A stretch of 64,000 bases of DNA from Pararhodobacter aggregans. Its GTDB lineage: Bacteria > Pseudomonadota > Alphaproteobacteria > Rhodobacterales > Rhodobacteraceae. How positions within the stretch are numbered: position 1 is the first letter of the stretch; each line of letters opens with the position of its first letter. The notes beneath the pieces were generated by a model. The model saw only the letters and a program-made list of their open reading frames with translations, did no database searches and was not told the origin of the DNA. Where the stretch lies: positions 62,001-126,000 of the forward strand of contig NZ_QDDR01000001.1 of NCBI RefSeq assembly GCF_003075525.1, given 5' to 3'. Below, piece by piece: positions 12,093 to 64,000 of this stretch. The translations under genes and the position numbers were made by a program.

Positions 12093-14366
12093 TCACCCCT
12101 CCAACTTCGTCAGATCCGCCACGCCGGCGCAGGTCGTGCGGATGCGGTGCAAGAGGTTCAGCCGGTTGCGGCGGACGATCTGGTTGTCGGTGTTGATCTG
12201 CACCGCGGTGAAGAACGCGTCGATGGGGGCGCGCAGCGCGGCCATCGCCGACATGGCGGCGGCGAAATCCTCGGCCGCCATCGCCGGGGCGATCTGCGCC
12301 TCGGCCTGGTCGAGCGCGGCGAAGAGGGCGCGTTCCTCGTCCGTCTCGGCGAATTTCGCTTCGGCCCCGAAGGAATATTCCACCCCGTCCTTGGCCTCGG
12401 CCTGGGTCAGGATGTTGTTGGCCCGCTTGAAGCCCTGCAACAGGTTCTCGCCGTCGTCGGTTTTCAGGAAGGCGCTGAGCGCCTCGGCCCGCTTGACCAG
12501 CAACGTAAGGTCGTCGTTGCCGGGCATGGCGAGGCAGGCGTCGATCACGTCGTGGCGGATGCCCTGATCCTTGAGGAAGACTTTCAGGCGGTCGTGGAAG
12601 AAGGCGAGGAGGTCGGCGGCACGAACTACTGCTTCGCTGACTTCGGCAAGGAGCAGATCGTTGTGATCTTTCATCCGCACCAAATCACCTTTCTTCGCGA
12701 CCATTGCGGCCTCTGCGGCAGCGGGGAACTGCTCAACAAGACCGCGTTCCGCTTCTGCGTGGATCCGATTGCTGTCGGAAAGAACGCGGTCGTATTCTGC
12801 TTGCATTGCTTCAATGCTGGCAAGCGTTTGCCCAGTGCGATGCAGGAAGATATGGTTTGCGAGATTGCTCGTCAGCGGAAGGCTTGCGTCTCGCTCCAAC
12901 ACCAACCGAATAACCCCCAACGCCGCCCGCCGCAGCGCAAACGGGTCTTTCGACCCGGTGGGTTTCTCGTCAATCGCCCAGAAGCCGGTCAGCGTGTCGA
13001 TCTTGTCGGCCAGCGCCACGGCCACGGACACCGGCTCGGAGGGCACCTCGTCAGACGGCCCCAGAGGCTGGTAATGCGCCTTGCAGGCGTTGGCCACAGC
13101 CTCGGGCAGGCCTGCCGCCTTGGCGTAATAGACCCCCATCGTGCCCTGCAACTCCGGGAATTCGCCGACCATGGACGAGCGCAGGTCGGCCTTCGCCACC
13201 CGCGCCGCTTCCTCAGCCAGATCGGGCGAGGCGCCGACCAGCGGCGCGATCTCGCGCGCCAGGGCGGCAATCCGGTCGATCCGGGCCTTCTGCGAGCCGA
13301 GCTTGTTGTGGAAGGTGACGTTGGCCAGCCCCTCGGCCATGCCGGTCAGGCCCTCGTTCCGCACGACCCGCAGGTCGTTTTCCCAGAAGAACTTGGCGTC
13401 CGACAGCCGCGCGGTCAGCACCTTCTGGTTGCCCTTCAGGATCGTGGCGCCGTTGTCGGCCGTTTCGCGGTTCGCGACCGTGACGAAGCGCACGATCCGC
13501 CCCGAGGCATCCTTCAGCGAGAAGAATTTCTGGTGCTCGCGCATCGAAGTTTGCAGCACCTCGGGCGGAAGGTCCAGGAACTCGGCCCCGATCTCGCCCA
13601 TCAGCACCACCGGCCATTCGACCAGCCCCGCGACCTCGGCCAGCAGGCCCTTGTCCTCGATGGGCTCCAGCCCCAGCGCGAAGGCGCGGTTCTTCACCTC
13701 ATGCTCGATCATGTCGGCGCGTTCGGCCGCGTCCAGCACCACGAAGGCGCGTTTCAGCTTGGCCGCGTAATCCTCGAAGGAGGAGACGGTGAAGGCGCCG
13801 GGCGCCATGAAGCGGTGGCCGCGGGTGGTGTTGCCGGCGGTGATGCCGTCGATATCGAGAGGCACGACCTCGGCGCCGGCCTCGGTCACCATCAGGGCGA
13901 TGATCGAATGCAGCGGCCGCACCCAGCGCAAAGCGCCCGAGCCCCAGCGCATCGACTTGGGCCAGGGGAAGCTGCGGATGGTCTTTTCCAGCACCTCGGC
14001 CAGGATCGCCGCCGCCGGGCGCCCGGGTTTCTGGAAATGCGCGACGTAGAAGGCGCCTTTCTTGTCCTCATGGACGTGGAGTTGCTCCATCGTCAGCCCG
14101 GTCGAACGCAGGAAGCCGTCCAAAGCCTGCTGCGGGGCGCCGACTTTCGGGCCCTTGCGGTCCTCCCGCAGGGTCGGGCTTTCGGCGCTGAGCCCTTCCA
14201 GCGCCAGCACCAGACGGCGCGGCGTCGAGAAGGCGCGGGCATGGGCATAGCTGAGCCCGGCCTCGACCAGACCGTCCGTCACCAGCTTGCGCAGATCCTC
14301 GGCGGCGCGGGTCTGCATCCGGGCGGGGATTTCCTCGGAGAAGAGTTCGATCAGGACGTCGGGCAT
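12093..14366 (-). CDS. glyS: Glycyl-tRNA synthetase beta subunit
   Basis: 757 residues from ATG 14366 (MPDVLIELFSEEIPARMQTR). This is the beta subunit of the heterotetrameric bacterial GlyRS, which supplies tRNA binding and the C-terminal anticodon-binding region. Family blocks include FSEEIPARMQ, WPKSMRWG, RPLHSI, EHQKFF, MGVYYAKAAG, ADKIDTLTGFW and DPFALRRAALGVIRL. Residues about 480-582 (bases 12620-12925) are AT-richer, with codon use unlike the flanks, yet the frame is intact. This maps to the variable helical insert before DLLAFFHDRLKVF. It is the last gene of glyQ-membrane gene-glyS. Confidence 0.95.
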   Translation of the reverse strand: MPDVLIELFSEEIPARMQTRAAEDLRKLVTDGLVEAGLSYAHARAFSTPRRLVLALEGLSAESPTLREDRKGPKVGAPQQALDGFLRSTGLTMEQLHVHEDKKGAFYVAHFQKPGRPAAAILAEVLEKTIRSFPWPKSMRWGSGALRWVRPLHSIIALMVTEAGAEVVPLDIDGITAGNTTRGHRFMAPGAFTVSSFEDYAAKLKRAFVVLDAAERADMIEHEVKNRAFALGLEPIEDKGLLAEVAGLVEWPVVLMGEIGAEFLDLPPEVLQTSMREHQKFFSLKDASGRIVRFVTVANRETADNGATILKGNQKVLTARLSDAKFFWENDLRVVRNEGLTGMAEGLANVTFHNKLGSQKARIDRIAALAREIAPLVGASPDLAEEAARVAKADLRSSMVGEFPELQGTMGVYYAKAAGLPEAVANACKAHYQPLGPSDEVPSEPVSVAVALADKIDTLTGFWAIDEKPTGSKDPFALRRAALGVIRLVLERDASLPLTSNLANHIFLHRTGQTLASIEAMQAEYDRVLSDSNRIHAEAERGLVEQFPAAAEAAMVAKKGDLVRMKDHNDLLLAEVSEAVVRAADLLAFFHDRLKVFLKDQGIRHDVIDACLAMPGNDDLTLLVKRAEALSAFLKTDDGENLLQGFKRANNILTQAEAKDGVEYSFGAEAKFAETDEERALFAALDQAEAQIAPAMAAEDFAAAMSAMAALRAPIDAFFTAVQINTDNQIVRRNRLNLLHRIRTTCAGVADLTKLEG

Positions 14367-14392
14367 GGCGGAAACTCTGTTAAGTCGCGAGG

Positions 14393-14896
14393 TTATTGCG
14401 CGGGCGGGGGCGGGCAATCGGCCGGCACCGGATCGCCGTCGAAGGCCTTTTCGCCGCAATGGTTGATCTGCGGCCAGACATAGGCGCGCCCGTCGGGATA
14501 AAGCGCCATCACGCGGTCAAAGCCCCAGGGCGCGTTTTCCTCGACCATCACGGCGCGGGCCTGGCCGGTGGTCAGATCCTCGCCGATCTCGGCGGCGTTG
14601 AAGCAGTCGAACCAGCCGGGGGCGTTCAGGGGTTCGGTATGCGGCCGGTCGACCAGTTCCGGCAGGCCGCCGATGATCTGGAAGCAGGCGCGATACCGCA
14701 GGGGCGAGGACGTGCTGTCGATGCCCTGGAAATCGGCGATCTCCAGCCGGGCGGTGCCGCCGTCGGGCGTGGCGACCTGATAGCCGATCTGCGGCTCCAG
14801 TTCGTCATAATAGCCGTAGACCTGCAGGTAATACATGGCGATGCCCGCGACGGCGGCGCAGACAACGATCATGATCGCGGCGATGCGGCCGGTCAT
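14393..14896 (-). CDS. Small membrane protein between glyQ and glyS (DUF6446-like)
   Basis: 167 residues: one N-terminal transmembrane helix ([20 protein letters not shown]), then a soluble, presumably periplasmic domain with [38 protein letters not shown] and [20 protein letters not shown], and four Cys residues. I believe it is the DUF6446 family, which sits between glyQ and glyS in Rhodobacterales. Its ATG overlaps the glyQ stop by four bases and glyS follows after 26 bases, so all three are one operon. The function is unknown; there is no sign of a tRNA synthetase role beyond position. Confidence 0.75.
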
Positions 14897-56037: not shown

Positions 56038-56142
56038 GGGGGCAGGGGAGGGACAGGCACCCGCCGTCTGACGGACCCGTGCCGTCTGGAGGGGGGATGG
56101 TAGGCCCGGAGGTTCGGTCTTTTTCTAGCATTTTCAACGGCC

Positions 56143-56207
56143 AAAAGTGGCTAACAGCAGAAAAGTGGCCCATTGATATGAAACGAGAAAAAGTGTCACT
56201 GGCTAAC
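56143..56207 (+). repeat. Short direct repeats upstream of the first mobile-element gene
   Basis: AAAAGTGGC occurs at 56143-56151 and 56161-56169, with AAAAAGTGTCACTGGCTAAC just downstream; GGCTAAC follows the first and third copies. The stretch 56038-56227 is AT-richer than the upstream chromosome and probably holds the promoter and binding sites for the next gene, and the left boundary of the element. Confidence 0.5.
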
Positions 56208-56227
56208 CGCATGTTTGGGGGGTGGGC

Positions 56228-56794
56228 ATGGCCAGACCCCCAAAACTGAAGCCCGAGGAACTGATTGCCTGGATCAAGACGCGGATCGGCAGCAAGCCGA
56301 TTGAGCACGAGGGCCACACTTGGATGGCGATGGATCAGCCCGCCGACGCCGCCGAACTCGGGATTTCAGAGCGCACCCTGCGCACCATGATCAACGTCCC
56401 TCCCATCGTGAAGGCGCGCACGACCTACATGGATGGGACGCCCGTCGTGCTCCTGCGAGTCGGAACCCCGGAACCCGACAACGCGAGGATGATCGCCAGG
56501 AAGATGGCGAACATCTTTCGCAAGAGGACGGGGCTGGACACCGGTCAGCATGCGTTTGGTTGCCTGGTCGGCTTAGTCGAGATTTGGCCGAAGGGGCGAC
56601 AAGTAGACATCTTCCGCACTGTGATGGACGATTGGCCCGGCTTCATGGCGGGGGTGCAGTGTGCGGACATGGATGCCGAGCTTGCGGGGAAGGTGCTCGA
56701 CCCGGCGCTCAAGGAACGGTTCTACGGGAAGCCTGTGATCGCCCTGATCCGCAAGTATCCGGCTGTCGCGGTGGAACTCCACAACATGGCCTGA
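56228..56794 (+). CDS. Unidentified protein with HTH-like segment, flanked by repeats
   Basis: 188 residues; ATG 56228 follows GGGGGGTGGGC, with an in-frame GTG at 56222. I do not recognise the family. The N-terminal part has an HTH-like stretch (PADAAELGISERTLRTMINV), then a short beta region (TTYMDGTPVVLLRVG), a basic helix (NARMIARKMANIFRKRTGLD) and a C-terminal region with WPGFMAGVQCADMDAELAGK. Short repeats lie on both sides (56143-56207 and 56803-56871), the layout of a replication initiator or a regulator with its sites. Base composition and codon choice differ from the chromosome. A DNA-binding role is inferred only. Confidence 0.55.
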   Translation: MARPPKLKPEELIAWIKTRIGSKPIEHEGHTWMAMDQPADAAELGISERTLRTMINVPPIVKARTTYMDGTPVVLLRVGTPEPDNARMIARKMANIFRKRTGLDTGQHAFGCLVGLVEIWPKGRQVDIFRTVMDDWPGFMAGVQCADMDAELAGKVLDPALKERFYGKPVIALIRKYPAVAVELHNMA

Positions 56795-56802
56795 CTCGAC
56801 CC

Positions 56803-56956
56803 GTTGTTGCCGAATGGTCCGCATTCTTGCCGGATGCTACCACTTTCTGCCGGGTGGTCGAGTTGTTGCCGAATGCTTCTAGTCCCTATTACTAAAGGAA
56901 TAGATACTCTTAATAATCCTCTTATAGAATAGGGACTAGAACTTTCGGCAAGAATA
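56803..56956. repeat. Iteron-like repeats and large AT-rich dyad (origin-like)
   Basis: (T/C)TGCCG cores at 56807, 56827, 56847 and 56866 repeat with 20, 20 and 19 base spacing inside longer similar units (such as GTTGTTGCCGAATG). They are followed by TTCTAGTCCCTATT (56877-56890) and its perfect complement AATAGGGACTAGAA (56928-56941), enclosing 37 very AT-rich bases. Beyond the right arm an inverted copy of the repeat core, CGGCAA (56946-56951), completes the symmetry. Four phased repeats plus an AT-rich unwinding-like core is the layout of an iteron origin; it could also be a regulator array or a packaging/integration site. Confidence 0.6.
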
Positions 56957-57409
56957 AGAGGATCATAAAGAGTGCGACCCCGACGCTGCGCTCCGGGGAT
57001 CGCGAACAGACCCGACCAGGTTTCGAGCGGGTTTCGAGGGAGTTGGGAGGGGTTAACCCCGAAGAAGCTGAAAGTTGAACGCGGGCGCGCGCGAGCCGCA
57101 CTTTACGGGTTTGGGCCTGAGGGGATGATAGACAAACGCCGCCCCCAGGAAACCCAGGAGCGGCGTAAGGGCTGGGACCAGAAGACAGCGGTTGCGCCCT
57201 GTCGGGCATTCCATTGCTTACCAGCCGATCCCGCGTTTAGCCCCAGGGCACAAACCCGATCAACGGCGATTGTTTCAAATGCCCTTGCCCCAATTTTAAA
57301 ATCGTGCGACTCTGCCCGAGCTTTGATGACAGCCGGGGACAGCCCGGCATAGAGCATCGGACCCCCAGACCAGGGGGAAGCGCTTCCCGCAGCTTCACCT
57401 GGTCCCGCC
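56957..57409. other. Gene-poor leader of the phage structural module
   Basis: About 450 bases between the origin-like dyad and the portal start. It contains a hairpin from CGCCGC and GCGGCG around 57135-57165 (possible terminator) and locally AT-rich sequence near 57260-57310. A minus-strand ORF 57103-57357 (84 codons, MLYAGLSPAVIKARAESHDF at its start) has non-random-looking codons but no family match by eye; it is only a possibility. No terminase fragment was recognised. Confidence 0.4.
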
Positions 57410-58657
57410 GTGTCCTTCATAGCCCGCATCTTTGGCCGTCCTGACTCCGCCGCTGCCACGGCGGCGACCGCGACTGTCTCGGCCGAGGCCCGTTCGCTGG
57501 CCGATCCCGCGCCCTGGCTTCTGGACCTCTTCGGGGCCGTTCCTGCGTCTTCGGGCGTCACCGTCAGCCCGACCACCGCGATGCGCTGCACGCCCGTCCG
57601 TGCCGCCGTGGAAGCGATTGCCGAGGGGATCGGGGGCTTGCCCCTCCACGTCTACCGCCGAGGCCAGGACGGGGCGCGCGACCGTGCCAGCGATCACCCC
57701 GCCTATGCCCTCCTGCACGACCAGGCGAACGATTGGTCGCCGGCGCCCCAGTTTCGCGAACAGCTGACCCGTGATGCCCTCCTGCACGGCAACGGCTTTG
57801 CCCATATCGGCCGGGATGCCACCGGCACACCCCGTGAGCTGATCCGCCTCGACCCGGCCGTGATGATCGTGGAGCGCGACCAGGCTACCGGCGAACCCGT
57901 CTACCGCCTCGCCCAGGCCGTGGGGCAGCGTGCCCTCGACCGGCGCGACATCCTGCACATCGCCGCGCCCTCGCTCGACGGCATCAAGGGCACTTCTCCG
58001 GTCCAGCAATGCCGCGAGGCCATCGCGCTGGCCCTGGCGATGGAACGCTACGCCGCCGCGCTGTTCGGCAACGGGGGCCGTCCTTCGGGCATCTTGAGCT
58101 TCCCCGCCAAGCTGACTGCTGACGCCGCCAGCCGCATCAAGGCCTCCTGGCAGGCCGCCACCTCTGGCGCGAACACCGCCGGGACGGCAGTCCTGGAAGA
58201 GGGCGGCAGCTTCACGCCTCTGGCCTTCAGCTCGACCGATGCCCAGTTCCTGGAACTCTGGCAGCACGTCGTGACCGAGATTGCGCGCGTGTTCCGCGTC
58301 CCGCCGCACCTGATCTTCGAGCTGGGCCGAGCGACCTGGGGTAACGCAGGGGAAATGGGCGCGACCTTCCTGAGGTTCACGCTGATGCGCTGGATCAAGG
58401 CTTGGGAAGGCGAGGTGCGTCTCAAGCTCCTGACCCAGGAAGAGCGCGCTGACCATTACGCCGAATTTCTGGTGGATGACCTCCTGCGCGCCGACTTGGC
58501 CGCCCGTGCGACCGCCTACGCCCAGCTGATCGCCGCCCGCGTCCTCAATCCGAATGAGGTTCGGGCCATGGAGAACCGTGCGCCCTATGCCGGTGGCGAC
58601 GAGTTCCTGAACCCCAATACCACCTCGACCACCCCGAACCAGGAGGGCGAGGCATGA
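57410..58657 (+). CDS. HK97-family phage portal protein
   Basis: 415 residues, GTG 57410 start without a good ribosome site, so the true start is uncertain. HK97 portal features: VRAAVEAIAEGIGGLPLHVY, HPAYALLHDQANDWSPAPQF, LTRDALLHGNGFAHIGRDAT, DILHIAAPSLDGIKGTSPVQ, NGGRPSGILSFPAKLTADAA and FRVPPHLIFELGRATWGN. Portals form the dodecameric DNA entry ring of the capsid. It is the first gene of a tightly overlapping structural run; the stop overlaps the next start (ATGA). Normally a large terminase gene lies just upstream, but none is present here. Confidence 0.9.
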   Translation: MSFIARIFGRPDSAAATAATATVSAEARSLADPAPWLLDLFGAVPASSGVTVSPTTAMRCTPVRAAVEAIAEGIGGLPLHVYRRGQDGARDRASDHPAYALLHDQANDWSPAPQFREQLTRDALLHGNGFAHIGRDATGTPRELIRLDPAVMIVERDQATGEPVYRLAQAVGQRALDRRDILHIAAPSLDGIKGTSPVQQCREAIALALAMERYAAALFGNGGRPSGILSFPAKLTADAASRIKASWQAATSGANTAGTAVLEEGGSFTPLAFSSTDAQFLELWQHVVTEIARVFRVPPHLIFELGRATWGNAGEMGATFLRFTLMRWIKAWEGEVRLKLLTQEERADHYAEFLVDDLLRADLAARATAYAQLIAARVLNPNEVRAMENRAPYAGGDEFLNPNTTSTTPNQEGEA

Positions 58658-58995
58658 TCGGCACCCGTCAGTTCTTCGGTGATCGCGAGCGCGACTTCGC
58701 TCTGCCGCCCGCCCTGATCCTGGAACTGGAACGCCTGACCGGCCAGGGCATCGGCGGGCTGTCCCGCCGCTTGATGGCGGGGGATTTCAAACTGGCCGAC
58801 CTCCATCAGACCATCCGCCTGGGCCTGATCGGGGGTGGCGCTGAACCCCAGGAAGCCGCGGCGCTGATCGCCGCCTATGTCGAAACCCGCCCGGTGCTGG
58901 AAGCCTATGCGCTTGCAGTCACCGTCATCGACCATGTGATGACGGGCGGCCTTTCCCTCACCGAACCGAAGGAGAATGGCCGTGCTGACCCGTGA
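58654..58995 (+). CDS. GTA gp10/Phage_TAC_11-like tail chaperone-type protein
   Basis: 113 residues. RDFALPPALILELERLTGQG, GGLSRRLMAGDFKLADLHQT and IRLGLIGGGAEPQEAAALIA match the gene-transfer-agent family (Phage_TAC_11), thought to act in tail assembly. Finding it between portal and prohead protease rather than among tail genes is unusual. It overlaps the portal by four bases and the next gene by about 14. Confidence 0.72.
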   Translation: MIGTRQFFGDRERDFALPPALILELERLTGQGIGGLSRRLMAGDFKLADLHQTIRLGLIGGGAEPQEAAALIAAYVETRPVLEAYALAVTVIDHVMTGGLSLTEPKENGRADP

Positions 58996-59257
58996 ACAGC
59001 TCCACGATGCCGTAACGCATTACATGCGGGCAAACCGCAACCGCCAGATTTCTGGGGCCGAGATCGCGTGTGCGGTCTACCAGACCGATGCGCCCACGGG
59101 CTGGCAGAAGCTCCAAGCCACCCGCGCCGCTGCCCAGATCGGCCCGCGTCTCGGCCTTCGCTTCGTCCGGCGCGGCAACGTACCGACCTGGCTGCACCCG
59201 CTGGTCGCCGCGCAACGGTTCAACACCGTCATGCAGACGCTTGGGCTCCCGGCATGA
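58982..59257 (+). CDS. Unidentified small phage protein
   Basis: 91 residues from GTG 58982, for which AAGGAG (58969-58974) is properly spaced; an in-frame ATG at 58976 sits too close to it. No family recognised. It is helical and basic (LHDAVTHYMRANRNRQISGA, RAAAQIGPRLGLRFVRRGNV), possibly a small winged-helix or head-associated protein. It overlaps the chaperone-like gene upstream and the protease start downstream (ATGA), so it is surely part of the structural operon. Confidence 0.65.
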   Translation: MLTREQLHDAVTHYMRANRNRQISGAEIACAVYQTDAPTGWQKLQATRAAAQIGPRLGLRFVRRGNVPTWLHPLVAAQRFNTVMQTLGLPA

Positions 59258-59850
59258 AACCCGCAGAAAATTTGACATTGATTGCAAATTGGAAACGATC
59301 CGTTTCCCAAGTCGAGTTCCGCAGCGCGGCTCAAGCAGAACTCGCTGACGCTGAGGTGCGCTTCAGCCCCATTGCCGAAGATGGTTCCCTGGAAGGCTGG
59401 GCCACGCGGTTCAACACTCCCGACGCCTACCGCACCAGCTTTGACCCTGCCGCCTTCCAATGGGATGGGCAGCGGCTGCCGCTCCTGTGGTCGCATGATC
59501 CTTCCCAGGTGATTGGCAGCGTCCGCAGCGTGGCCACCGAGGCCGAGGGCCTGAAGATCACCGCCAAGCTGAACCTTGCCGTGCAGCGCGCCCAGGAAGT
59601 CCGCGCGATGCTCCTGGACGGGGACGTGTCCGGCCTGTCCATCGGCTTCCGTCGCCTTCGTGATGAGGCGCGCCAAGGCGGCATTCGCCACATCACCCAA
59701 GCCCGGCTGGTGGAAGTCAGCCTGGTTGCCGTCCCCGCCGTTCCTGGCAGCCGTGTGACCAGCACCCGCGCCATCCCCGGCACCAGCCTTGCAGCCTTCC
59801 TCGAAACCTGCCGCGCCGCCACCATCAGCCTGAAAGGCCAACGACCGTGA
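59254..59850 (+). CDS. HK97-type prohead protease
   Basis: 198 residues. Peptidase U35/S78 features: GSLEGWATRFNTPDAYRTSF, PLLWSHDPSQVIGSVRS (catalytic His), LLDGDVSGLSIGFRRLRDEA (catalytic Ser) and LVEVSLVAVPAVPGSRV. It trims scaffold and capsid proteins during prohead maturation. ATG 59254 overlaps the previous stop; its own stop overlaps the capsid gene start (GTGA), the classical protease-capsid coupling. Confidence 0.92.
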   Translation: MKPAENLTLIANWKRSVSQVEFRSAAQAELADAEVRFSPIAEDGSLEGWATRFNTPDAYRTSFDPAAFQWDGQRLPLLWSHDPSQVIGSVRSVATEAEGLKITAKLNLAVQRAQEVRAMLLDGDVSGLSIGFRRLRDEARQGGIRHITQARLVEVSLVAVPAVPGSRVTSTRAIPGTSLAAFLETCRAATISLKGQRP

Positions 59851-61025
59851 AGCACCTCCACCCCCTCGAAACCCGTTCGGCCCTGCCGGTGGACGCGCTG
59901 TCCATCGAAACCCGGAACGATCCCCCGCCCCAGGGCAATGACGCCGATCCGCTGGCCGAGGCCACCCGTGCCGTGACCGAGCTGCGCGCCGCCGCCGAGG
60001 CCCAGCAGGCCCGGCACCAGACCGAGCTGCGCACCCTGACCGAGCGTCTGGCCCAGCTCGAAACCCGCGCCAATCGCCCGACCTCGACCGAGACCACCGA
60101 GGAACCCAGCGCCGAGCGCCGGGCCTTTGCCCATTACCTCGCCAGCGGCCAGGTGACGGCCGAGGAACAGCGGGCGCTGACCCAATCCAGCGACGTGCAG
60201 GGCGGCTATCTGGCCCCGCCGGAACTCGCCTCCGAGATCATCCGCGACCTGGTGGAATACAGCCCCATCCGCAGCGTGGCGAGCGTGCGCACCACCTCCG
60301 CGCCTTCGGTGATCTATCCGACCCGCGGCGACCTCACCAACGCCCGCTGGCTGGGCGAGGGCGAGACCGTCACCGAAAGCACGATCACCTTCGGCCAGGC
60401 CGAGGTTCCGGTGCGCGAGCTGGCGACCTTCGTGGACATTTCCAACCGCCTTCTGGCCGACGCCCCGCAGGCCGAAACCGAAGTGCGCGCGGCGCTGGCC
60501 GAAGACTTCGGCAAGACCGAGGCCACCGCCTTCCTGTTCGGCACCGGTCCGCGCCAGCCCGCTGGCCTCATGCTGAATACCGCGATCCCCGACACCCCCA
60601 ATGGCCACGCCGCCAACCTCTCGGCCGATGCGCTGATCGCGCTCCTGTATGCCCTGCCTGCGACCTACCGCGCCGCCGGGGCCTGGGCGATGAACGGCAC
60701 CACGCTGGGTATCCTGCGCACGCTGAAGGACGGCCAAGGCAACTACCTGTGGCAACCCAGCTACCAAGCGGGCCAGCCTGAGACGATCCTCGGCCGCCCC
60801 GTGGTCGAAATGGTGGACATGCCCGCCATCGCTGCCGACGCTTTCCCGATCATCTACGGCGACTTCTCGGGATACCGGATCGTGGACCGGGTCGGGGTGG
60901 ACATCCTGGTCGATCCCTTCACCCGGCGCGGCAACGGTCTGACACGCATCCATGCCAACCGGCGCGTGGGCGGGGGCGTCCTGCAACCCGCCAAGTTCCG
61001 CAAGCTGCGCATGGCCGTCAGCTGA
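59847..61025 (+). CDS. HK97-fold major capsid protein
   Basis: 392 residues from GTG 59847. An N-terminal scaffold-like delta domain of about 95 residues (ATRAVTELRAAAEAQQARHQ coiled coil) is followed by the mature shell domain: SSDVQGGYLAPPELASEIIR, LVEYSPIRSVASVRTTSAPS, VRELATFVDISNRLLADAPQ, ALAEDFGKTEATAFLFGTGP, AAGAWAMNGTTLGILRTLKD and IYGDFSGYRIVDRVGVDILV. Protease cleavage near residue 95-110 is expected. The layout fits HK97-like siphophages and GTAs. Confidence 0.93.
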   Translation: MKHLHPLETRSALPVDALSIETRNDPPPQGNDADPLAEATRAVTELRAAAEAQQARHQTELRTLTERLAQLETRANRPTSTETTEEPSAERRAFAHYLASGQVTAEEQRALTQSSDVQGGYLAPPELASEIIRDLVEYSPIRSVASVRTTSAPSVIYPTRGDLTNARWLGEGETVTESTITFGQAEVPVRELATFVDISNRLLADAPQAETEVRAALAEDFGKTEATAFLFGTGPRQPAGLMLNTAIPDTPNGHAANLSADALIALLYALPATYRAAGAWAMNGTTLGILRTLKDGQGNYLWQPSYQAGQPETILGRPVVEMVDMPAIAADAFPIIYGDFSGYRIVDRVGVDILVDPFTRRGNGLTRIHANRRVGGGVLQPAKFRKLRMAVS

Positions 61026-61049
61026 TCCCCCAGAACCAGGAGCACCCTC

Positions 61050-61433
61050 ATGCGTGACCTTCATTCCAATATCGGCACGGTTCTGGCGCTGGCCCCGGCC
61101 GTCCAGACCGCCGCCGCCCAAGGCCCGGCCATCGACCTGCAAGGGTTCGAGTCCGTGGCTTTCGCCGTCAACACCGGGGCCATCGCCGGGTCGGGCGACT
61201 TCGGCCTCGCCCTTCAGGAAAGCGCCGATGGCGCGACCGGCTGGGCCAATGTCGCCGCCGACCAGGTGCAGACCAATGCCCCCGCGACCCTGGAAGCGGC
61301 CAGCACCTACCGGCTGGGCTACCTGGGCCATGAGCGCTTCGTGCGTCTGTCCCTGACCCGCGTCAGCGGCACGTCGATTGCCGCCGGGGCCACCGCCATC
61401 CTGGGCCGCGCGCATTCGCGCCCCGTCGCGTAA
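61050..61433 (+). CDS. Unidentified phage structural-type protein
   Basis: 127 residues, predicted mostly beta (IDLQGFESVAFAVNTGAIAG, GDFGLALQESADGATGWANV, FVRLSLTRVSGTSIAAGATA). No named family recognised. Position directly after the capsid gene, with AGGAGCACCCTC as ribosome site, suggests a head-decoration or head-tail protein. The AT/GC content matches the rest of the module. Confidence 0.65.
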   Translation: MRDLHSNIGTVLALAPAVQTAAAQGPAIDLQGFESVAFAVNTGAIAGSGDFGLALQESADGATGWANVAADQVQTNAPATLEAASTYRLGYLGHERFVRLSLTRVSGTSIAAGATAILGRAHSRPVA

Positions 61434-61445
61434 GGAGCTGACACC

Positions 61446-62195
61446 ATGTCGATCAACTCGACCGCAGGGGCCTTGGTGGACATCGGCCCGGCCACCACCA
61501 CCGCCGCCACCATGGCAGACTTCCAAGCCTATGGCCCCGCCGACTGGCTCGACATCGGGCTGGTGGAAGACCTTGGCGAACTGGGCGGGGAAGCGGAACA
61601 GCTCCTGTTCAAGGCCATCGGGGAAAAGGCCACCCGCCGCCTGAAGGGCACCCCGGACTATGGTTCGATGGAACTGGTGCTGGGGCGTGATCCCCTGAAC
61701 CGTGGCCAGCAGGAACTGCAAACCGCATTTCGTGACCATCGCCCCTATGCGTTCCGCGTCCGTCTGGAAGACGCGCCGGTCGGGGGCACTCCGAGCACGT
61801 TCTACTTCCGCGCGATGGTGAGTTCCTTCCGTCACCAGCTTGGTGCCGAAAACAACATCACCCGCACCAACGTCGCGCTGGGGATTGATGGCGAGGTGTT
61901 CGAGGTGCCCGCGGCCCTCGGCCTGAACTTCAGTCCCGTCATGGGTGCCTTGACCGCCGGGGAAGAGGGCACCGTGTATGCGGGCGTCACCATCGCGGCA
62001 ACGGGAGGCACTGGCACCGCCAGCTATGCCGTGACGGATGGCAACCTGCCGCCGGGCCTGAGCTTGAATGCCTCGACTGGGGCGATCAGCGGCACGCCCA
62101 CGACCGCGGGCACCTACAACTTCACGATCACTGCGACCTACTCGACCAGCGGGACGGGTGCGGCGGTCTACAGCATCACCGTCGATCCGGCTTGA
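61446..62195 (+). CDS. Phage tail-tube-like protein with C-terminal Ig-like domain
   Basis: 249 residues. Residues 1-165 look like a siphophage tail-tube/major tail protein (DWLDIGLVEDLGELGGEAEQ, FRVRLEDAPVGGTPSTFYFR, MVSSFRHQLGAENNITRTNV). The last 80 residues are a putative Ig (He_PIG/BIG-like) domain: YAVTDGNLPPGLSLNASTGA, ISGTPTTAGTYNFTITATY. Such domains decorate the tail tube and help attach to surfaces. It starts 12 bases after the previous stop, with AAGGAGCTGACACC upstream. Confidence 0.75.
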   Translation: MSINSTAGALVDIGPATTTAATMADFQAYGPADWLDIGLVEDLGELGGEAEQLLFKAIGEKATRRLKGTPDYGSMELVLGRDPLNRGQQELQTAFRDHRPYAFRVRLEDAPVGGTPSTFYFRAMVSSFRHQLGAENNITRTNVALGIDGEVFEVPAALGLNFSPVMGALTAGEEGTVYAGVTIAATGGTGTASYAVTDGNLPPGLSLNASTGAISGTPTTAGTYNFTITATYSTSGTGAAVYSITVDPA

Positions 62196-62205
62196 TGGTG
62201 ATAGG

Positions 62206-62787
62206 ATGCGCGCAGGTCAGGAAATCCGGCTGCACCTGAAGGGCCAGGGAGTCGTCCCCCTGCGTCCTAGCTTGCGCGCATCCTTCAATCTCTCCGACCG
62301 CCCCGGCGGCTTCCCCAAGCTGATCGCGGATTTGCAGGACGGCAGCCTGACCGCCGCCTGCGACATCATCAGCGCAGCGTCCCCTGATATTCCCGACCTG
62401 GAAGCGAAGGTACTGGCCACCGGCCTGGAAGCGCTATCCATTCGGCTCCTGTTCTTCGTGCTGGCCTGTTTGGGCCTCGCCCAGGAACAGCCCGACAATG
62501 CCGAACCGGCCACCGGCAAACAGGTCACGCTGACCGAGCACCTGGCCAGCCTCTACCGTTACGGCACCGGCTGGATGGGCTGGACCCCGGATCAGACGCT
62601 TGCCGCTACCCCCGCCGAGATCGTGGAAGCCGTCAAAGGCCGCACCGACATGCTGCGCGCGATCTTCGGCACCAGCGAGGCCGAGGACAAGCCGAAGGAG
62701 CCCGTGGACATCAAAGCCAAGTTCAGGGCCGCGTTCGGGATCATCGGCACCACCAAGGCCCCTTCGACCAACATGGGGGCCGCATGA
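62206..62787 (+). CDS. Tail assembly chaperone-like protein
   Basis: 193 residues. The N-terminal part (EIRLHLKGQGVVPLRPSLRA, FPKLIADLQDGSLTAACDII) resembles the GTA/TAC chaperone pattern. The C-terminal part (ASLYRYGTGWMGWTPDQTLA, ATPAEIVEAVKGRTDMLRAI) resembles the second region often produced by frameshifting in siphophages, here in one frame. ATG 62206 has only AGG adjacent. It ends with a four-base overlap with the XRE gene. A second chaperone-type gene lies at 58654. Confidence 0.6.
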   Translation: MRAGQEIRLHLKGQGVVPLRPSLRASFNLSDRPGGFPKLIADLQDGSLTAACDIISAASPDIPDLEAKVLATGLEALSIRLLFFVLACLGLAQEQPDNAEPATGKQVTLTEHLASLYRYGTGWMGWTPDQTLAATPAEIVEAVKGRTDMLRAIFGTSEAEDKPKEPVDIKAKFRAAFGIIGTTKAPSTNMGAA

Positions 62788-63017
62788 ACAGCCGTAGCGA
62801 ATTGGCCATCATCCTGGGCGACCTCCTGAAGGAACGAGGCATCGCGGCGCGTGCACTGGCACGCGACACTGACACGTCGCGCTCCACTCTGCGCGCCTTC
62901 CTGGCGGGGCAGCGATCCCCGCGCATCGACATCTTGGAAGCCTGGTTGAGCCACCTGGGCTACTCCCTGGAAGTGTTCACCCTCGACACCCGACACCACG
63001 ACACGGGGGCTGTGTGA
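62784..63017 (+). CDS. Small XRE-type HTH regulator
   Basis: 77 residues: LAIILGDLLKERGIAARALA, DTSRSTLRAFLAGQRSPRID and ILEAWLSHLGYSLEVF, a compact helix-turn-helix of the Cro/CI type. Embedded by overlap in the structural operon (ATGA with the upstream gene, TGATG with the HNH gene), which is an unusual place for a repressor; it may control late genes. Confidence 0.75.
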   Translation: MNSRSELAIILGDLLKERGIAARALARDTDTSRSTLRAFLAGQRSPRIDILEAWLSHLGYSLEVFTLDTRHHDTGAV

Positions 63018-63358
63018 TGCCCATCCGCGCCCCGTCCATCTGCCAATGCGGCCGAGCTGTCCAAAGCGGCAGCCGCTGCCCTTGCCGTGCCCAGGCCGAC
63101 CGGGAACGCAAGGCCCGGCACGACCAAGCCCGCCCCAGCGCCCAGGAGAGGGGCTACAACGGCAAGTGGCAGACGGCCCGCAAGGACTTCCTGGCCTCTC
63201 ATCCCACCTGCGCCATGTGCGGTGCTTCCTCCACCGTGGTCGATCACCGCATCCCGCACCGCGGCGACAAGAAGCTGTTCTGGTCTAGGAGCAATTGGCA
63301 GCCCCTCTGCACTTCCTGCCATTCCAGCCGGAAGCAATCCCAGGAGCGCCGCGCATGA
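63017..63358 (+). CDS. HNH endonuclease, phage packaging type
   Basis: 113 residues from ATG 63017 (GTG 63014 possible). Zinc and catalytic motifs: ICQCGRAVQSGSRCPC (N-terminal Cys cluster), SHPTCAMCGASSTVVDHRIP (CxxC then DH), NWQPLCTSCHSSRKQ (N and CxxCH). HNH proteins of this kind assist terminase in cleaving DNA during packaging and are normally encoded next to terS/terL, which suggests the terminase genes lie just beyond the right end of the window. Confidence 0.88.
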   Translation: MPIRAPSICQCGRAVQSGSRCPCRAQADRERKARHDQARPSAQERGYNGKWQTARKDFLASHPTCAMCGASSTVVDHRIPHRGDKKLFWSRSNWQPLCTSCHSSRKQSQERRA

Positions 63359-63954
63359 CCAAAAGGCTTTTCAAGTTCGAGGGCGCGCATCGCACCCTTT
63401 GGGAGATCGCCAGCATGGTGGGGGTGGCCCGTAGCACGCTCTTTGACCGTGTGACCCGACAGGGCCTCGACATTCACGAGGCGACCACGCGCCCCATTAC
63501 GCCGCCACACCTCAAGTTCAAGCCGAAGCCGCCCAAGGTGTTCGAGTTCCGGGGGCAGATGATGACGCTCAAGGAGATTGCAGCCGTCGTGGACAGGCAC
63601 CCCAATACCGTGCGCCGGCGCATCGTCAACGGGCATGTCCTGGACGGGCAAGAGCTGGTCGACCCCTACATGGAGCCCCATCCCCTTTGCCGGATGATCT
63701 TCTACCAAGGCGAGAACCTGTCCGTGGCCGACTGGGCCAAGCGCACCGGCATCGACCGCTTCACCATCTATTCCCGCTTCTACATGGGCTGGGACCCGAT
63801 CCGCGCCATCACCACCCCGATCAAGGCTACCTACCAGGCAAGGACCATCCGTGTCCGCAATCGCCGCACCATCACCCGCATGGTGATCCTCACCCGCAAC
63901 CGCCGGGCCATCAGGCGGATGGTGGGTGCCGCTTATTCAAGTGCGGTGTCGTGA
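63355..63954 (+). CDS. Multi-HTH phage protein of unknown function
   Basis: 199 residues. Three HTH-like segments in tandem: HRTLWEIASMVGVARSTLFD (about 12-31), MMTLKEIAAVVDRHPNTVRR (about 69-88) and NLSVADWAKRTGIDRFTIYS (about 122-141), each preceded by a short basic or aromatic turn (FKFEGA, FEFRGQ, IFYQGE). The C-terminus is rich in Arg (TIRVRNRRTITRMVILTRNR). It looks like a DNA-binding protein that contacts a repeated site; a small-terminase-like role is possible, given its place after the HNH gene, but unproven. ATG overlaps the HNH stop. Confidence 0.65.
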   Translation: MTKRLFKFEGAHRTLWEIASMVGVARSTLFDRVTRQGLDIHEATTRPITPPHLKFKPKPPKVFEFRGQMMTLKEIAAVVDRHPNTVRRRIVNGHVLDGQELVDPYMEPHPLCRMIFYQGENLSVADWAKRTGIDRFTIYSRFYMGWDPIRAITTPIKATYQARTIRVRNRRTITRMVILTRNRRAIRRMVGAAYSSAVS

Positions 63955-64000
63955 TGCCGTTATCGTGTCATCCACGAGGAACTGCGGCCACGCACAGCGG
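63955..64000. other. Right window edge
   Basis: Only 46 bases follow the last stop; no gene, repeat or tRNA end can be recognised. The mobile element evidently continues. Confidence 0.4.

Follow-up and report, generated by a model that had tools for sequence, protein, structure and literature searches.

A candidate phage satellite with its own capsid and tail tube in Pararhodobacter aggregans, and its relatives in alphaproteobacteria

The capsid-forming phage-inducible chromosomal islands (cf-PICIs) have the gene order HNH-terS-terL-portal-protease-capsid. In the parts of the two accounts used here (PMC10690885, PMC11389934), they are islands of satellite size that carry an integrase, their own capsid, protease, portal, connectors, HNH endonuclease and terminase, package into their own heads and are described as helper-dependent for tails. 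The Streptomyces satellites MulchRoom and MiniFlayer also have their own terminase, portal and capsid but are actinobacterial and tied to virulent helpers; in the portion of the source drawn on (PMC10690885), tail genes were not detected in MulchRoom and MiniFlayer has short tail fibres. Here we describe an integrated element of about 17.3 kb in Pararhodobacter aggregans whose left 7.9 kb lie at the end of the window, by which we mean the whole stretch analysed (64,000 nucleotides, G000:C1:62001-126000). The remainder is found in L004, the contig stretch to its right (window position = L004 + 53999; L and G numbers are labels of loci and genomes, C numbers are contigs of the own genome, G000). 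We consider it fairly probable that the element is a phage satellite that forms its own capsid and tail tube, with a helper phage supplying the tip.

Like the cf-PICIs, the element has its own integrase and integration site and its own capsid, protease, portal and connectors. It differs from them in gene order, with the portal first, HNH in the middle and TerL late, immediately before the tape measure protein (TMP), and in having tail genes (tube protein, TMP, tail completion protein and chaperone); many members of its family add a tube protein, chaperones, tail completion proteins, a TMP and sometimes a first tip protein. Because of these two differences we do not class it as a cf-PICI, though it would work like one. 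Among phages, related portal, TerL, HNH, integrase and TMP domains are each found in at least one of the alphaproteobacterial siphophages vB_MseS-P1, RcapNL and phi2LM21, but these phages are 40-47 kb long and have annotated tail-tip and other modules. Full-text searches of the open PMC library on satellites showed no account of such a satellite family, although an earlier publication is possible.

The element measures 17,338 bp from repeat to repeat. Direct repeats were looked for at its flanks and a 15-bp pair was found, the right copy being the 3' end of a tRNA-Met(CAT) gene (L004:19437-19512) that the integrase gene adjoins (Table 1). A genome of the same genus, G044, has the site empty (L291:2275): the repeat is present once, and the tRNA with the right flank (90.6% over 1467 bp) comes immediately after dnaE2 (83%). 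Since G044 is another species, this is the unoccupied arrangement and not movement in the P. aggregans strain itself.

The first-pass annotation of the window had described a compact, permuted run of eleven structural genes without integrase or terminase. The eleven plus-strand genes are there (57410-63954), and the portal-first, TerL-late order is real and common to most members of the family whose maps show these genes. The genes had been said to overlap nearly all by 1-4 bases; six of the ten junctions do so, by 4 bases, one overlaps by 20 and three are gaps of 10-24. Most of the proposed identities agreed with the expected families; the second protein called chaperone-like matches only PHROGs families without assigned function. 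The lack of integrase and terminase was only apparent, because the window ends inside the element, and both lie just right of 64000. The order there is a minus-strand putative moron, a connector, an HK97-gp10-like protein, tail completion protein gp17, a head completion protein, TerL, TMP, a cargo pair, small open reading frames (ORFs) and the tyrosine integrase.

The element has relatives in many alphaproteobacterial genera. In IMG/VR we found 68 loci with related capsids, 36 on contigs of 14-21 kb, 28 on shorter and four on longer ones, the last judged from gene maps only and two of them being weak relatives; provirus ends are set there by prediction, so that this is weak evidence on size. 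A TerL alignment search of GTDB gave 239 loci. Among the best 80 of these 239, 77 belong by their titles to alphaproteobacterial groups, an assignment that we presume for some of the titles, and three to Proteobacteria only. In the window's taxonomic family, 295 genomes from 294 genera were searched, the own genome among them, and 10 had TerL at E 1e-100, a sparse distribution as expected of mobile elements. A search for flanking repeats in 82 loci gave 32 repeat-bounded elements, accepted by eye, of 14.1-19.1 kb (median 17.36, sd 1.0), whose repeats overlap or resemble tRNAs for Met, Glu, Arg, Pro, Thr, Gln, Leu, Val, Lys, Ser and Gly.

The four genes compared across the family, TMP and the major tail protein (MTP) among them, are under purifying selection. 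Median dN/dS was 0.225 for TMP (21 pairs), 0.19 for MTP (37), 0.165 for the capsid (40) and 0.057 for TerL (39), with at most the 40 most similar pairs taken per gene and the pairs not being independent. The main TMP cluster is present in at least 39 of the 80 genome loci; clusters were built by single-linkage BLASTP and some loci are truncated, so that per-locus presence counts are lower bounds. Nineteen of the 32 repeat-bounded elements have a main-cluster TMP, and L096, L099 and L149 a TMP-like long ORF. At least L091, L093, L110, L128 and L155 look head-only, similar to cf-PICIs. We rejected the idea that every member without the TMP cluster is of this kind: L103, L118 and L125 hold other long coiled-coil ORFs that resemble TMPs by eye, and repeated exchange of tail types is therefore a possibility.

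The P. aggregans genome holds a second element of the family, on C6 (~41.8-59.8 kb; L006:5797 to L009), 17,934 bp long and bounded by a 23-bp repeat at a tRNA-Glu. Its genes code for an AAA-domain helicase-like protein, portal, protease, capsid, a phrog_5707 protein, HNH, tube protein, connectors, TerS (PF05119), TerL, TMP, a distal tail protein (Dit; phrog_1302 1e-28), a TAC_18 chaperone and an integrase. The TerL family profile has exactly two matches in this genome; a third DNA match, on contig C11, was discarded, being 70 bp long in a region whose called ORFs looked host-like by eye. C6 also carries a lambda-type prophage (~263-296 kb; L169, L170) with GpA terminase, lambda portal, capsid E, tube protein, TMP, Dit, a 220-aa gene, a DUF6950 gene, a 2199-aa tip protein, Amidase_2 and a D5_N-type primase-like protein. 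Its tip proteins of 216, 220, 137 and 2199 aa have relatives in the tail regions of at least five other sources each. This resident lambda-headed prophage is a candidate helper. The second element resembles it in the TMP C-terminus (64% identical, 247 aa) and in Dit (59%, 215 aa), the TMP of the window element is 29% identical to its TMP over 700 aa, and the head genes of both elements have no match in it. A cluster similar to the gene transfer agent (GTA) RcGTA, with a GTA_TIM tip protein, is found at C1 ~262-276 kb (L165). It is similar to the window element in the capsid (33% identity over 304 aa), the portal and the TAC_11 domain, with weak matches to the elements beyond portal and capsid (TAC 4.7e-5, connector 2e-6), but it is a separate locus with its own tail tip, and no integrase was noted there. 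As a helper the GTA was rejected: its TMP, Dit, hub and tip ORFs match no element (blastp, phmmer, E 1e-3).

To look for tip and lysis proteins we took 140 queries from those parts of 17 phage loci, the resident prophage, vB_MseS-P1, phi2LM21 and the GTA that hold the distal tail and lysis genes. Against the 3813 ORFs of the 32 repeat-bounded elements they recovered only Dit in L006 and L106, proteins like lambda gpM in L084, L089, L096 and L149, a 122-aa protein in L084 and L129, gpI-like proteins in L113, L135 and L144, and one marginal match of a long query, at E 1e-4, to an ORF of L094. Extending the search to 150 loci (14,703 ORFs) brought further proteins of Dit and M type, a tip gene next to Dit in L141 and a small number of other matches, among them a chitinase-like ORF flanking L114. 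At E 1e-5 none of these ORFs was matched by a query longer than 500 aa, and no central tip protein was recognised in the 150 loci. As a control, 98 of the 140 queries were recovered by a query from another genome, including 24 of 33 longer than 500 aa and two of seven lysis queries, so that the negative is fair for the tip and weak for lysis. A PHROGs scan covered 158 non-core proteins (83 + 75) of the 196 listed for 22 tail-bearing elements, the other 38, mostly likely antisense ORFs and also long TMP-like ORFs, having been left out by eye. Among the matches listed (25 of 58 and 25 of 53 PHROGs families), the tail families were the M-like phrog_14, the I-like phrog_32 with its relatives and phrog_12296, and none was a lysis family.

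Two placements of tip genes stand apart. In L141 (Neorhizobium) two tip genes, Dit and the next one, follow TMP (13478-14715) and are close to those of phi2LM21 (1e-65, 3e-87); judged by these matches, L141 is a member with one step more of the tip than the others. In L113, L135 and L144 (Rhodopseudomonas, Bradyrhizobium) the gpI-like phrog_32 protein adjoins the portal and does not follow TMP.

We compared the distal tail parts of the elements with those of phages that share a genome with them. Candidate phages were sought with a profile built from 39 TMPs, first in 28 element genomes and then in 17 more, one apparently a duplicate. The candidate TMPs were 24 ORFs from 26 fetched loci plus that of the resident prophage (25), and five added later (30); not all of the 24 loci need be complete phages (L218 has element-type genes, L205 a disrupted TMP), and these two were excluded from the same-genome listing of the first-tip comparison. 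When the best same-genome scores over the final 50 TMP residues were added up, the total was 1138, compared with a mean of 564 after shuffling (sd 87.5; 0 of 5000 shuffles; 20 elements, 25 TMPs), and in the enlarged set 1313 compared with 696 (0 of 10000; 26 elements, 30 TMPs), statistics that ignore host relatedness. The N-terminal 250 residues showed no excess (1941 of 10000). The matches concern a minority of the members: five of the 26 elements have a strong same-genome match of the TMP C-terminus, with scores of 105-203. These are the second element with the resident prophage, Martelella lutilitoris (L084/L204, at rank 2, the Martelella radicis phage L201 scoring higher), Salipiger pallidus (L115/L216-L217, last 50 residues 76% identical), Agrobacterium vitis (L117/L206-L207) and Thioclava (L140/L225). 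The first tip protein had its best match in the same genome for four of seven elements that have a gene of this type and a candidate phage in their genome (L006, L084, L106, L115, L078, L081 and L149, chosen after the gene tables were seen), with identities of 59% and 39% for Dit, 61% for the M-like protein (58% to L201) and 53% for a phrog_384 type.

If the satellite reading is right, the element would excise and reintegrate at the tRNA-Met 3' end by its own tyrosine integrase, make its own HK97-type procapsid, package itself by its own HNH/TerL machinery and build its own tail tube around its own TMP. Given that no central tip or lysis genes were recognised, both the tip and cell lysis would have to come from a helper phage, on which the particles would depend for what would be chimeric tails. 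Docking would fall to the TMP C-terminus, joined in some members by one first-ring protein of Dit or gpM type or by a gpI-like tip protein. In lambda, the gpM ring connects tube and tip and the C-terminus of gpH lies in the tip on gpI, in the part of PMC10721106 used here; for 80alpha, the sections drawn on of PMC7048315 have Tal bound by the final residues of the TMP and describe tail assembly as presumably beginning from Dit, Tal and TMP. By analogy, the distal parts of the satellites, where present, would be the interface parts of these published tails.

Several observations weigh against this reading. The assembly contains the element in integrated form only, and particles, excision and transfer were not directly seen. 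In the PHROGs scan, one of the 83 and one of the 75 proteins matched phrog_12296 ("tail fiber"; 5e-15 and 5e-24), and their source was not among 20 candidate proteins scanned singly. No lysis gene was recognised in the 32 elements, under the weak control mentioned above, and the flank of L114 holds a chitinase-like ORF. Accepted flanking repeats are missing from 50 of the 82 loci, many of which lie close to a contig end or to the 10-kb limit set for the flank, and the satellite nature is therefore not established for every TerL relative. Same-genome matching is not confined to the C-terminus, since the TMP middle is also in excess (16 of 10000). There is no clear TMP-end match in 20 of the 26 elements; the pair L306/L307 is at rank 1 with a weak score of 64, cross-genome scores of other elements reaching 82. 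The six added elements alone give no significant excess (1158 of 10000), and dropping the seven candidate TMPs that belong to the five strongest genomes abolishes the signal (3872 of 10000). Satellites and phages of the same host may also simply recombine. As for the window element, the end of its TMP ranks the resident prophage 9th of 30 (the middle, 1st), it has no first-tip gene, and the tube proteins of both elements have no match in the prophage; lacking a first-tip gene and a TMP-end match, its helper is unproven. The last 60 residues of its TMP found no matching phage in INPHARED (best cover 51%) or in 63 IMG/VR loci, the highest score apart from its own (301) being 49. A helper does not have to reside in the same strain, since those of the cf-PICI EcCIEDL933 are reported, in the part of PMC11389934 drawn on, not to be native to its strain.

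Other explanations have to be considered. The element could be an autonomous miniature siphophage whose tip, receptor-binding and lysis functions are encoded and escape recognition. Integrase, terminase, head, tube and TMP are present along with several ORFs without assigned function, the lysis controls are weak, and the two tail-fibre matches (among the matches listed) point the same way. Nevertheless, no unassigned ORF in the window element is longer than ~220 aa (own gene calls from a simple GC-bias caller in our scripts, ORFs antisense to structural genes excluded), compared to 2199 aa for the tip protein of the resident prophage and 633 aa for Tal of 80alpha in the part used of PMC7048315, and the queries for the tip, which do detect proteins of the first ring in several elements, gave no central tip in any of the 150 loci. 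We regard a miniature phage as unlikely.

Decay of prophages, with loss of their tip and lysis modules, would also leave modules that are the same as in siphophages and no visible central tip or lysis genes, and the two copies in one genome leave movement unproven. However, size and order are conserved across many alphaproteobacterial genera at different tRNAs, the genes are open with dN/dS well below 1, TMP and MTP included, and the att repeats and the empty site are there; family-wide conservation and dN/dS make us give little credit to this possibility. It appears just as doubtful that the tail genes serve interference, jamming or mis-measuring the tails of the helper, and that the satellite head is fitted, as in cf-PICIs, with a helper tail. 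Some members without TMP and tube clusters (L091 and L093, for example) would suit this, as would the partial resemblance of satellite TMPs to phage TMPs, but the whole tube set of tube protein, completion proteins, chaperones and TMP is kept, beyond the needs of a decoy, and some members retain first-ring proteins next to TMP. An integrated phage-plasmid or a GTA cluster, suggested by the origin-like block and the capsid similarity, is very improbable given the element's own integrase, tRNA integration and empty site, features foreign to a GTA that is kept vertically without mobility genes, and given that the GTA cluster lies elsewhere with weak matches beyond portal and capsid.

The first-pass annotation had itself proposed a cf-PICI-like satellite or a phage-plasmid, to be abandoned if a full tail, lysis and integrase module lay to the right or if the gene order were that of a conserved GTA cluster. 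To the right are integrase, TerL and TMP, tip and lysis genes not being recognised, and the GTA cluster is at another place in the genome. The satellite half of the proposal keeps its ground in the compact size, the conserved family, the own head, packaging and integrase, the absence of recognised central tip or lysis genes and the presence, in some of the genomes, of full phages that match. What has to be given up is the likeness to a canonical cf-PICI (gene order, tail tube, TMP), the basis then given for it and, with the repeats at the tRNA and the empty site, the phage-plasmid.

Some further features of the element deserve comment (Table 1). The 190-aa left ORF had no match in Pfam, PHROGs or PADLOC scans, and lies, as had been noted, beside a block of repeats; together they may be an initiator and its origin, and some relatives have O-like initiators, AAA helicase-like proteins or a primase at the left edge. 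The 93-aa protein was likewise without match in PHROGs, Pfam and PADLOC. The phrog_5707 protein behind the capsid was modelled by AlphaFold2 as a beta-sandwich (mean pLDDT 92), for which Foldseek gave weak similarity (E 1e-3 to 6e-3) to the phage capsid entries 3j4u_H and 8cjz_A and also to many unrelated jellyrolls; it is possibly a head decoration (cement) protein. The family of the second putative tail chaperone is kept in 37 of 150 loci, and its tail role is suggested by position, the PHROGs matches carrying no function. The terminase set consists of HNH and TerL with a protein of three helix-turn-helix (HTH) motifs as candidate in place of TerS, the TerS of the Terminase_4-type cluster not being found in the window element. 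Of 118 loci tabulated, 82 have that TerS cluster, seven the three-HTH protein, none both and 29 neither. The three-HTH protein may be a small-terminase substitute; its structure model has low confidence (pTM 0.32) and is too uncertain to take this further. The minus-strand gene of cluster k30 sits inside the structural operon, also in L078, L079, L099, L122 and L010, the IMG/VR copy from the own genome. Defence of the host is a common trait of satellites, and the FRG gene of the cargo pair suggests that this element might also defend its host.

Table 1. Features of the element (window positions unless marked L004)
Feature	Position	Strand	Family match or remark
Left 7.9 kb of 17.34-kb integrated element	56098-64000	+	remainder L004:10002-19451
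attL core TGGTAGGCCCGGAGG	56098-56112		15-bp repeat, L004:2099
190-aa protein, candidate replication initiator	56222-56794	+	initiator role suggested by position beside repeat block
Origin-like block	56803-56975		three direct TTGCCGAATG-type repeat copies and inverted copies; AT-rich inverted repeats
Portal, HK97 type	57410-58657	+	PF04860 1.4e-101
Tail assembly chaperone, GTA-gp10/TAC_11 family (Phage_TAC_11)	58654-58995	+	PF11836 3.8e-21
93-aa protein	58976-59257	+	no family assigned
Head maturation protease	59254-59850	+	phrog_80 3.4e-36
Major capsid protein, HK97 fold family	59847-61025	+	PF05065 6.8e-79
phrog_5707 protein, directly behind capsid	61050-61433	+	PHROGs match; predicted beta-sandwich
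Major tail (tube) protein, C-terminal Ig-like domain	61446-62195	+	phrog_158 2.6e-18, PF05345 1.2e-16
Second putative tail chaperone	62206-62787	+	phrog_7493, no assigned function in PHROGs; cluster 17
XRE-type regulator	62784-63017	+	HTH_3 8.9e-9
HNH endonuclease	63014-63358	+	PF01844 2.5e-6
Three-HTH protein, C-terminal helices	63355-63954	+	HTH matches below cut-off only
Putative moron, gene end	63960-64000; whole gene L004:9961-10545	-	cluster k30, 7 family loci
Head-tail connector	right of 64000		PF05135
TerL	66085-67740 (L004:12086-13741)		PF20441 1.4e-35
TMP, 789 aa	right of TerL		phrog_10574 3e-124
Cargo pair: FRG protein and ribbon-helix-helix protein	L004:16157-17448	-	49% GC (low); FRG: PF08867, PADLOC candidate system PDC-S15 1e-102
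Tyrosine integrase	72299-73342 (L004:18300-19343)		PF00589 8e-20
attR copy of TGGTAGGCCCGGAGG	73436-73450 (L004:19437-19451), outside window		3' end of tRNA-Met(CAT)

Extended to the whole family, the observations lead us to a tentative rule, in which we have less than even confidence: widespread alphaproteobacterial satellites would make head, neck, tube and TMP and steal only the tip, through an exchangeable docking module (the TMP C-terminus plus one Dit- or M-type first-ring protein) acquired from, and matched to, the tip type of the helper. If true, a family that keeps its own tube and TMP and borrows the tip alone would shift the line between phage and satellite, and the TMP C-terminus together with the first tip protein would provide a sequence rule for guessing helpers from genomes.

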